DNA of 64,000 nucleotides from an uncultured Spirochaetales bacterium (GTDB taxonomy: Bacteria > Spirochaetota > Spirochaetia > Sphaerochaetales > Sphaerochaetaceae): NCBI GenBank assembly GCA_949293595.1, contig CASFDW010000002.1:1-64000 (forward strand), given 5' to 3'. This document shows positions 23,393 to 27,014 of the stretch, in pieces. The translations under genes and the position numbers were made by a program. Position 1 is the stretch's first letter. Every line of letters starts with the position of its first letter. The notes under the pieces are model-generated. The model was given only the letters and a program-made list of their open reading frames with translations. It did not search any database and was not told the origin of the DNA.

Positions 23393-23677
23393 ATGTTGAC
23401 ATTGTTAACAAACCTGCCAAAGGACGTTCTCATCCAACAGATCAAGGACGGAGGGATTCTTCTGGTTCTCGGCATGGGCACAGTCTTCCTATTTCTTGTA
23501 ATACTCATATTTGCAACAAAACTGATGAGCAAGATCGTGATGAAGATCCAGCCCGCACAGCCGGCGGCGCCTTCTGCAGGAAGGCCCCAGGCGGCAGCAC
23601 CGAAGGCCGCAGCAAAGAAGGACGATTCCGCTGCAATCGCAGCTGCAATCGCGGCAGCCTATGACAAAAACAGATAA
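23393..23677 (+). CDS. oadG: Oxaloacetate decarboxylase gamma subunit (OadG family)
   Basis: 94 residues. A single membrane helix (about 21-42) is followed by an Ala/Pro-rich linker and a short cytoplasmic tail, the architecture of OadG, which holds alpha and beta subunits together and helps bind zinc. The ILLVLGMGTVFLFLVILIFATKLMSKI segment is highly typical. GAGGAG precedes the ATG. First gene of oadGAB. Confidence 0.9.
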   Translation: MLTLLTNLPKDVLIQQIKDGGILLVLGMGTVFLFLVILIFATKLMSKIVMKIQPAQPAAPSAGRPQAAAPKAAAKKDDSAAIAAAIAAAYDKNR

Positions 23678-23689
23678 GGGGAACGAAAA

Positions 23690-25804
23690 ATGAGCAAGAA
23701 AAAAGTAAAATTCATGTGTACAGCATTCCGTGACGGATTCCAGTCCGTTTATGGAGCCCGTGTTTTCACAAAAGACTTCATGCCTGCGGTAGCGGCTGCG
23801 AAGGAAGCCGGCATCACACATTTCGAAGCAGGCGGCGGAGCAAGATTCCAGGCGCTTTATTTCTACACCAACGAAGATGCGTTCGCAATGATGGACGAAT
23901 TCAGGAAGGTCGCAGGACCTGATGCAAATCTCCAGACCCTCGCAAGGGGCGTGAACATCGTAGGCCTCGACTCCCAGCCAAGGGACATGATCAAGCTCCA
24001 TGCAGAGCTTTTCAAGAAGCACGGCATGACGACGATCAGGAACTTCGACGCGCTCAACGACGTCAACAACCTCATCGACAGCGGAAAGGCAATCCATGAC
24101 GCAGGACTCCGCCATGAGGTCACAGTCACCATGATGAGCCTCCCCGAAGGGGTCACCGGCGCACATGATCCCGACTTCTACGAAAAGATACTCCGCCAGA
24201 TCCTCGATGCGGACATCCCGTTCGACAGCGTATGCTTCAAGGATGCATCGGGAACAAGCACGCCTCACAACGTGTATGAGACGATCAAGAGGGCCAGGAA
24301 GCTCCTCGGGCCGGACATGAACATCGTCTTCCACTCCCATGAGACGGCAGGTGTGTCCATCCAGCAGTACATGTCCGCACTTGAAGCGGGAGCCACCCAG
24401 GTCGACCTTTCGATGAGCCCCTGCTCCGGCGGAACATGCCAGCCCGACATCATCACGATGTGGCATGCCCTCAGGGGAACCGACTACACCCTCGACATCG
24501 ATATCGCCAAGGTCCAGGAGGCTGAGCGCGTGTTCGAGGAGTGCATGAAGGACTACTTCCTCCCGCCGGAAGCGACGATGGTCAATCCCAATATTCCGTT
24601 CTTCCCCCTGCCGGGTGGAGCCCTTACCGCCAACACACAGATGCTCAGGGACAACAACCTCATGGACAAGTACCCGCTCATCGTGGAGGCCATGGGCGAG
24701 ACAGTGGCCAAGGGCGGATTCGGAACAAGCGTGACACCTGTCAGCCAGTTCTATTTCCAGCAGGCGTTCAACAACGTCATGTTCGGGCCCTGGAAGAAGT
24801 TCGCAGAAGGATATGGAAAGATGGTCCTCGGATATTTCGGCAAGACTCCCGTGGCTCCAGACCCGGAGGTCGTGAAGCTTGCCAGCGAGCAGCTCAAGCT
24901 CGAGCCGACAACCGAAAAGTGTGTCGACATCAACGACAGGGACCCGAAGAAAGGCAGGAAGGCCGCGGAAGCCATGCTCAAGGAAGCAGGTCTCCCGATC
25001 ACCGACGAGAACGTGTTCATTGCTGCTGCTTGTAAGGAGAAGGGCATCCTCTACCTCACCGGAAAGGCTCATGTCAATGGAGTCAGAAAGGTCAGCGCCG
25101 AAGCCAAGAAGGAAGAAAAGAAGAGCGGAAACGGAGAATACACCGTGACCGTCAACGGAGTCAGCTATGGTGTCAAGATCGAAAAGGACAGCGCTGTCGT
25201 CAACGGCGTCAAATATCCGCTTTCGATCGAGGACGGAATCAAGGTTGCATCGGCAAAACCGGCAGCAAAGGTTGTGACAACCACTGCAACAACCGAAGTC
25301 AAGGCACCGATGCCGGGCCTCGCGCTCCGCTTCAACGTCAAGGTCGGAGATACCGTGAAGAAGAACGACATACTCATGGTCATGGAGGCCATGAAGATGG
25401 AAAACGAGATCTACAGCCCGTGCGACGGCGTGGTATCGTCCATAGTCATCAACCAGGGTGACCAGGTGCAGGCCGGGGACGTGCTCATCACCATCGGCGG
25501 CACAGTTGTGGAGACTGTGGCCGAAGCGGCTCCGGAAGCTCCAGCGGCTGCAGAACCGGCGGCAAAGGCTCCGGTTGCATCCGCAGCAGGTGCCACTGAG
25601 ATCAAGGCACCGATGCCGGGCCTCGCGCTCCGCTTCAACGTCAAGGCCGGGGATGCCGTGAAGAAGAACGACATACTCATGGTCATGGAGGCCATGAAGA
25701 TGGAGAACGAGATCTACAGCCCATGCGATGGCGTTGTAAGTGAAATCTGCGTCAACCAGGGGGATCAGCTCCAGGCTGGCGACACGCTCATGATCATCGG
25801 CTGA
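23690..25804 (+). CDS. oadA: Biotin-dependent decarboxylase alpha subunit (OadA type) with two biotinyl domains
   Basis: 704 residues, about 100 longer than usual. The N-terminal carboxyltransferase barrel transfers carboxyl from the oxoacid to biotin: FRDGFQS at about 10, the CFKDASG Lys loop at about 183, and metal ligands in [16 protein letters not shown] domain follows. The C-terminus carries two tandem biotinyl domains separated by an Ala/Pro linker; both have the EAMKM site (K569 and K670). The first motif reads RDGFQS rather than the commoner RDAHQS, so oxaloacetate is probable but methylmalonyl-CoA or a related substrate is not excluded. It lies 12 nt after oadG and 13 nt before oadB. 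Confidence 0.9.
25301..25434 (+). repeat. Biotinyl-domain repeat, copy 1
   Basis: This 134-nt stretch recurs at 25604-25737 (offset 303 nt) with seven mismatches by eye, encoding the [12 protein letters not shown]...EAMKMEN core of the first biotinyl domain. Similarity falls off sharply after the SPCDGVV segment. Confidence 0.9.
25604..25737 (+). repeat. Biotinyl-domain repeat, copy 2
   Basis: Second copy of the 134-nt repeat at 25301-25434. The two copies are separated by an Ala/Pro/Glu-rich linker. The near identity, including synonymous sites, indicates recent duplication or ongoing gene conversion. Confidence 0.9.
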
Positions 25805-25817
25805 TGGGGAGAATAAA

Positions 25818-27014
25818 ATGCAGGCAATTATAAACGGATTCCAACAGCTTGCACTTTCCACGGGTCTCAAGGGTTTCCTCCTCGATCAGGGAGGAATCGG
25901 AAACGCCCTCATGATCCTTGTGGGATTCGTGCTTTTGTATCTTGCTATCAAGAAAGGATTCGAGCCTCTTCTGCTCGTACCGATCGGAATGGGCTGCATC
26001 CTTTCCAACATCCCGATGGCGTACATCGCCAGCATCGACCCGTCGACGGGGGATCCGGGCTTCATCTCGATCCTCTTCTCGGCAGGCATCGACACGGGAC
26101 TCTTCCCCGTGCTCATCTTCATGGGCGTCGGGGCGATGACCGATTTCGGACCGCTCATCGCGAACCCGAAGACCCTTTTGCTCGGAGCCGCCGCACAGTT
26201 GGGCATCTTCACCGCGCTCATCGGATCGTTGCTGCTTTCCTTCATTCCAGGAATCAACTTCGACCTTTTCGTGGCTTCCTCAATAGGAATCATCGGAGGT
26301 GCGGACGGACCTACGGCGATTTATGTCACCAGCAGGCTCGCACCGGATTATCTTGGATCGATCGCGGTCGCGGCCTACTCCTACATGGCCCTCGTGCCGA
26401 TCATCCAGCCGCCTATAATGAAGGCCCTCACGACAAAGAAGGAAAGGATGATCAGGATGGAGCAGCTCAGGCCCGTATCCAAGCTTGAGAAGATAATCTT
26501 CCCGATCATGGTTCTCACCGTCTGTGCGATCCTTCTTCCCTCGGCATGCCCGCTCATCGGAGCGCTCATGTTCGGAAACCTTGCAAAGGAGTGCGGAGTC
26601 GTTGGAAGACTTTCCGATACGATGCAGAACGCACTGATGAACACGGTTACCATCTTCCTCGGCCTCTCCGTAGGTTCGAAGATGGCCGCCGACAAGTTCC
26701 TCAACCTCGAGACACTCGGCATCCTTCTTCTCGGAATGGTTGCCTTCGGAGTCGGAACCGCGGGTGGAGTCCTCCTTGCGAAGCTCATGAACAAGGTGGA
26801 TCCGAAGCATCCGGTGAACCCGCTCATCGGTTCTGCCGGAGTATCCGCGGTACCTATGGCCGCACGTGTCTCCAGCAAGGTCGGGCAGGAGGAGGATCCC
26901 CAGAACTTCCTTCTCATGCATGCCATGGGACCGAACGTTTCCGGAGTCATCGGAAGCGCGGTGGCGGCGGGAGTGCTCATCTCGGTCGTACCGACGATGA
27001 TGAACGCCATCTGA
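25818..27014 (+). CDS. oadB: Sodium-translocating decarboxylase beta subunit
   Basis: 398 residues with many hydrophobic segments. Decarboxylates carboxybiotin and exports sodium across the inner membrane. The [19 protein letters not shown] stretch (about 155-173) contains the conserved Asp implicated in sodium transport, and the [18 protein letters not shown] segment near the C-terminus is equally diagnostic. GGGGAG lies before the ATG. Together with oadG and oadA it makes the complete membrane pump. Confidence 0.93.

Follow-up and report, generated by a model that had tools for sequence, protein, structure and literature searches.

We describe a putative sodium-pump decarboxylase whose alpha subunit carries two nearly identical C-terminal biotinyl domains in place of the usual single one. 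The gene is located in a 64,000-nt stretch of contig CASFDW010000002.1 (assembly GCA_949293595.1, here called the window) from a gut spirochaete, an uncultured member of the Sphaerochaetaceae. Comparison with related genomes demonstrates that the tandem form is real, conserved and dynamically maintained. In this energy-conserving enzyme, the count of swinging arms thus seems to be a trait that evolves.

In the window, the alpha gene lies between the genes for gamma and beta in the order oadG-oadA-oadB (Table 1). By this gene context, the locus is assigned to a biotin-dependent decarboxylase with predicted Na+ transport. The closest solved structure of the OadB protein is the beta subunit of StOAD (6iva, E 3.8e-140). 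Nine functional residues known from work on the Salmonella and Klebsiella OAD (PMC7274780) are all identical in the window protein (9/9): the Na+-site and other essential residues E40, D203, R304, N311, S382 and N412, and further Y229, N373 and G377. The association with the pump extends to the relatives, as 86 of the 91 family loci with at least one lysine-bearing domain hold both OadG and OadB (17 + 55 + 14, counted with flanks complete or not).

Table 1. Features of the decarboxylase locus in the window.
Feature	Position	Strand	Evidence
94-aa gamma subunit of the oadG type, anchors the pump in the membrane	23393..23677	+	PF04277 E 7.4e-19; TIGR01195 above cut-off
704-aa alpha subunit, oadA-like, with a carboxyltransferase, a PYC_OADA domain and a pair of biotinyl domains	23690..25804	+	PF02436, PF00364 twice; solved relatives 5ks8, 1rqb, 2nx9
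Biotinyl domain 1 (aa ~535-603), predicted biotin lysine K569 (codon 25394-25396)	25292..25498	+	PF00364 80.3 bits; barrel-sandwich model
Ala/Pro-rich flexible linker between the biotinyl domains, 32 aa, 56% Ala+Pro	25499..25594	+	Composition; pLDDT <50 at aa 605-633
Biotinyl domain 2 (last; aa ~636-704), predicted biotin lysine K670 (codon 25697-25699)	25595..25801	+	PF00364 78.9 bits; barrel-sandwich model
Homogenized core, copy 1; 7 differences/134 nt to its partner	25301..25434	+	Repeat comparison
Homogenized core, copy 2	25604..25737	+	Repeat comparison
398-aa beta subunit of the oadB type (Na+ channel and decarboxylase of carboxybiotin)	25818..27014	+	PF03977 E 6.2e-159; TIGR01109 above cut-off; nine functional residues kept

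The carboxyltransferase part of alpha is divergent, with about 26-29% identity to solved ones, the best of which are the pyruvate carboxylase beta subunit 5ks8, the transcarboxylase 5S subunit 1rqb and the OAD carboxyltransferase 2nx9. Its fold is of the OAD/PC/5S type, with target-normalized TM scores of 0.85-0.86 in Foldseek comparisons with 1rqb and 2nx9. The RDGxQS, KDxxG and HxHxTxG motifs, which we take to be the conserved metal and lysine motifs, align to 5ks8. Since the alpha subunit scores below the cut-off of the oadA equivalog TIGR01108 (364.7 vs 756.5 bits), we call the gene oadA-like and infer that its substrate is most likely oxaloacetate.

The two tandem domains of the preliminary description were recovered by Pfam as two PF00364 matches, each with its EAMKM motif (K569 and K670 of the 704-aa chain, encoded by 23690-25801). 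An AlphaFold2 model of alpha, built from 56 family sequences with a mean pLDDT of 82.5, contains two separate all-beta barrel-sandwich domains (~534-603 and ~636-703, pLDDT about 90), each preceded by a linker modelled as disordered (aa 519-531 and 605-633, pLDDT <50). K569 sits at the hairpin between strands 561-567 and 570-575, and K670 between 662-668 and 671-676. Both domains place the MKM motif on a predicted surface hairpin within a barrel-sandwich fold; they are assigned as biotinyl and not lipoyl domains, and both lysines are presumably biotinylated.

At the DNA level, the domains contain a direct repeat of 144 nt (25292-25435 and 25595-25738, spacing 303) with 134 identical positions (10 differences, 93%). 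Exactly 7 of the 134 bases differ within 25301-25434, as had been estimated, and the edges are as abrupt as first described: identity falls sharply to about 9/20 on the 5' side and to about 13-15/20 on the 3' side. When the codons of domain 2 were redrawn from the operon's own usage with the amino acids unchanged, a core identity of 0.845 was expected (sd 0.024, maximum 0.935 in 10,000 draws), compared to 0.959 observed. Likewise, 14 of the 16 comparable four-fold sites are alike in the two cores, against an expectation of 0.40 from the codon bias of the same gene (P about 1e-4). The repeat identity is thus beyond what amino-acid constraint and codon usage explain.

To place this architecture in its family, 139 genomes of the Sphaerochaetaceae were sampled; a match was present in 135 of them, and 95 loci were read. 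Biotinyl copies were located by the MKM motif, and the domain profile was then used to seek decayed copies. The alpha subunit has two domains in 59 loci, three in 14 and one in 18; three further loci are without biotin lysine and one is cut at a contig end. The expectation of a single domain in OadA is thus not borne out by the family, in which two is the commonest state and three is recurrent. In the window's genus (g1), each of the 40 loci sampled has two or three domains, and single-domain alphas occur in many family members, the g16 genomes among them. On a tree of the catalytic part, from which truncated loci had been removed, at least 16 copy-number changes were counted, six of them between one or fewer and more than one domain and nine between two and three. 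Linkers between the domains are 24-46 aa long (median 60% Ala+Pro).

The individual copies are well preserved. MEAMKMEN is found in 175 of the 179 family copies, and the profile detected no further decayed copy in the multi-domain chains of the 95 loci. Among near relatives, pN/pS amounts to 0.056 for first domains, 0.079 for last domains and 0.026 for the catalytic part, which points to purifying selection at both domain positions. With the motif kept, no decay and low pN/pS, a dead second domain was rejected at the sequence level.

Several loci deviate from the common arrangement. The two-domain OadA at locus L070 (G076:C1:1528150-1530324, a one-contig genome) has no adjoining OadB or OadG; two OadB homologues (52-60% identity) are located elsewhere in the same genome, away from this locus. 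In g22 (L093, L094, L095; G136:C14:3789-5280, G138:C7:28976-30462, G137:C143:23249-24299), OadA ends in a C-terminal domain remnant that is devoid of the biotin lysine, with neither OadB nor OadG at the locus. The g22 genomes encode a small separate biotinyl protein just upstream of an OadB elsewhere, which suggests that the carrier moved from cis to trans. Contigs are broken inside the biotinyl repeat in three genomes (G009:C82/C7, G016:C125/C9, G018:C43/C39), where the copy number could exceed three. In a sample of 296 Spirochaetota genomes, matches to the DNA pattern of the tandem were confined to the Sphaerochaetaceae, a lower bound because the exact pattern misses some true cases (e.g. 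G076, G029); a search at order level brought no gain, as the order equals one family here.

The repeat had initially been attributed to recent duplication or gene conversion, and only the second part of this proposal stands. In a domain tree of g1 and g2, last copies are mostly apart from copies that are not last (7 label changes vs 39 with shuffled labels), and copies 1 and 2 of three-domain chains are mostly sisters. In the core (codons 5-46 of the domain), the fraction of identical four-fold sites is 0.667 within and 0.464 between genomes, with 0.43 expected from codon bias; the domain tail reaches 0.402 against 0.378. Third-position identity of the g1 cores is 0.682, compared to 0.564 +/- 0.011 with shuffled partners. 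Judged by these comparisons, the domain ends are position-specific and the central ~42 codons are homogenized within genomes. The position-specific ends place the split between first and last domains ahead of the radiation of the window's genus, and the duplication is hence old; a recent de novo duplication was rejected on the basis of the domain tree and the tails. Core four-fold matches between the copies are 14/16 in the window but only 9/16 and 7/15 in its nearest relatives (98% protein identity), and the orthologous cores of the window and L005 match at only 7/18 and 8/18 sites. This argues for an old duplication that was recently converted in the lineage of the window. The system clearly illustrates how gene conversion continues to act on a domain's core, with the edges staying position-specific.

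The genome of the window (94.5% complete) encodes BirA and the biotin importer BioY about 2.4 kb apart. A biotin carboxylase domain was not found in it, and an AccB model gave weak matches within OadA only. A third PF00364 match was rejected as a biotin protein, as it belongs to an HlyD/RND-type adaptor. The two alpha domains are accordingly the only predicted biotin acceptors of this 94.5% complete genome. The idea that the second arm works for a different biotin enzyme, such as acetyl-CoA or pyruvate carboxylase, was rejected, since neither biotin carboxylase nor AccB was found at this completeness. AccB is present in many congeners but was not detected here; acetyl-CoA carboxylase may be missing from the lineage, an unusual situation with regard to fatty-acid synthesis if so.

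Tandem carriers also exist in other groups. When GTDB contigs were scanned and the matches checked for frame and domains, at least 54 were obtained outside Spirochaetota, in Bacteroidota, Cloacimonadota, Bacillota, Thermodesulfobacteriota, Pseudomonadota and Lentisphaerota. Short frames that hold a single true domain, e.g. from Lachnospiraceae and Desulfobulbaceae, had matched the pattern through chance MKM occurrences and were discarded. Among the matches listed, 37 of the 54 tandem carriers have an OadB homologue in the same retrieved locus, a raw count by which enrichment near OadB is only suggested. The matches listed comprise separate carriers of 230-285 aa, classical OadA/PycB-type chains (Geobacter, Telmatospirillum) and three-domain Alistipes chains, together with relatives of the window alpha in Desulfoluna (L118) and Lentisphaerae (L159). 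Stand-alone two-domain carriers of 230-285 aa (L103, L112, L121, L133, L147, L166 and similar) are found beside OadB homologues in Bacteroidales, Cloacimonadota and Clostridia. The OadA/PycB-type chains of Alistipes/Rikenellaceae (L100, L163, L195, L196, L204) are about 790 aa long and have three biotinyl domains, with no OadB in the retrieved locus. As the multi-domain chains of Geobacter and Alistipes lack OadB in the retrieved locus, the tandem is not exclusive to pumps.

The reading that we consider probable is a Na+-pump decarboxylase with two equivalent, redundant biotin carriers on Ala/Pro tethers, in which the extra arm adds density and reach. The carboxyltransferase would move the carboxyl group from the substrate to the biotin of either domain, and carboxybiotin arriving at OadB from either arm would be decarboxylated and drive Na+ export. 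The second arm would increase carrier density and the reach from the cytosolic head to the membrane pump, with the arms being redundant, as is assumed for the one to three lipoyl domains in E2 of pyruvate dehydrogenase. Duplication or deletion of the tandem unit would change the copy number, and repeated gene conversion would keep the copies alike in their core, to which the biotin loop belongs. Both arms presumably work and would offer a kinetic benefit. The homogenized biotin loop indicates that the arms are equal and not specialized. The earlier idea of a higher carboxybiotin supply, or of simultaneous contact with both sites, is plausible as a putative function. However, gamma binds alpha in a 1:2 ratio in the characterized OAD (PMC7274780), and carriers may already outnumber the beta sites in enzymes with one domain, so that a simple supply argument loses force. 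A benefit of redundant carriers is likewise weakened by the many family members, including g16, that manage with one domain.

The main rival, which we regard as unlikely, is that neutral repeat dynamics account for the pattern, with unequal crossing-over generating tolerated copies, conversion keeping them alike and the second domain bringing no benefit. The frequent fluctuation of copy number and the existence of one-domain relatives are in agreement with it, and the strong conversion can by itself maintain the likeness of the copies, with no need of selection for two. Against this, two or three copies persist in every sampled locus of the window's genus (40/40), multi-domain chains are free of decayed copies, pN/pS is 0.06-0.08 at both positions and also low in the non-homogenized tail, and the tandem recurs in several phyla. 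A division of labor appears improbable. First and last domains would here be specialized, e.g. for the carboxyltransferase of the own chain vs a neighboring chain or the beta subunit, consistent with position-specific domain ends across genera and with the conservation of both positions. Such specialization predicts the opposite of a homogenized core with the biotin loop; the tail differences may only reflect linker adjacency or the C-terminal place, and some lineages have one or three domains. Insurance against incomplete biotinylation, by which two sites would raise the share of chains with at least one biotin in a host-associated biotin importer, is very improbable: the BioY importer near BirA and OadA as the only predicted biotin acceptor of the genome would fit, but additional sites would supply no further biotin where the cofactor itself is scarce, and AccB is retained in many congeners whose alpha has two or three domains. 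An assembly or binning artefact (a collapsed or falsely duplicated repeat) can practically be dismissed, for although contigs of relatives ending within the repeat (G009, G016, G018) indicate that short-read assemblies struggle there, the window copies differ in the core and strongly so outside it, and the same architecture occurs in dozens of independent assemblies, one isolate (Bullifex porci, L139) and the one-contig genome of L070 (G076). For the family as a whole, these multi-domain forms led us to reject an artefact; the tandem is present in relatives of the window, and the motif at K670 is intact.

Beyond the proposed redundant carriers of the window itself, we tentatively raise the possibility that carrier number is adaptive and tunable in sodium-pump decarboxylases, with one to three arms set by duplication, equalized by conversion, arising independently in several phyla and setting the pump flux. 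The natural series of one to three arms in close relatives with an otherwise identical operon makes limitation by carrier number or reach testable in biotin enzymes, a long-standing question that is debated likewise for lipoyl domains.

Among known systems, the OadGAB-type OAD shares with the window locus the three subunits, the type of gene order, the carboxyltransferase and biotinyl domain on alpha, and the nine beta residues (PMC7274780). Its described alpha subunits (Klebsiella, Vibrio, Salmonella) have one biotinyl domain (PMC7274780), in contrast to two in the window and one to three in the relatives, and the carboxyltransferase of the window is divergent. In the open-access literature, where absence is a weak indication, we found no account of a pump-linked alpha with biotinyl domains in tandem. 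Two biotin attachment domains were reported in 2010 for the Geobacter bemidjiensis OadA Gbem_1454, whose genome lacks OadB and OadG, and pump-associated OadA homologues were said to have only one domain (PMC2996986), a statement that the pump-linked tandem form corrects. Gbem_1454 resembles the window alpha in its two biotin domains on an OadA chain, and differs from it in having no sodium pump and a classical OadA-type carboxyltransferase. The glutaconyl-CoA decarboxylase of Clostridium symbiosum possesses two separate carriers, GcdC1 and GcdC2 (PMC7145394). It likewise pumps sodium and uses more than a single biotin carrier, on Ala/Pro linkers, but its carriers are separate proteins and its carboxyltransferase is of the unrelated crotonase type, whereas the window carriers are in tandem on alpha. 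The closest likeness in working is offered by pyruvate dehydrogenase E2 (dihydrolipoyl acetyltransferase), which has one to three lipoyl domains that are thought to be redundant (PMC8421416, PMC6270654). E2 and the window alpha have the same domain fold, near-identical tandem copies and Ala/Pro linkers; E2 carries lipoyl instead of biotin, forms a soluble multienzyme core and transports no ions, and alpha is not of the E2 family. If carrier number is indeed tuned, the carrier array would correspond, with biotin as the cofactor, to the array of lipoyl domains in pyruvate dehydrogenase.
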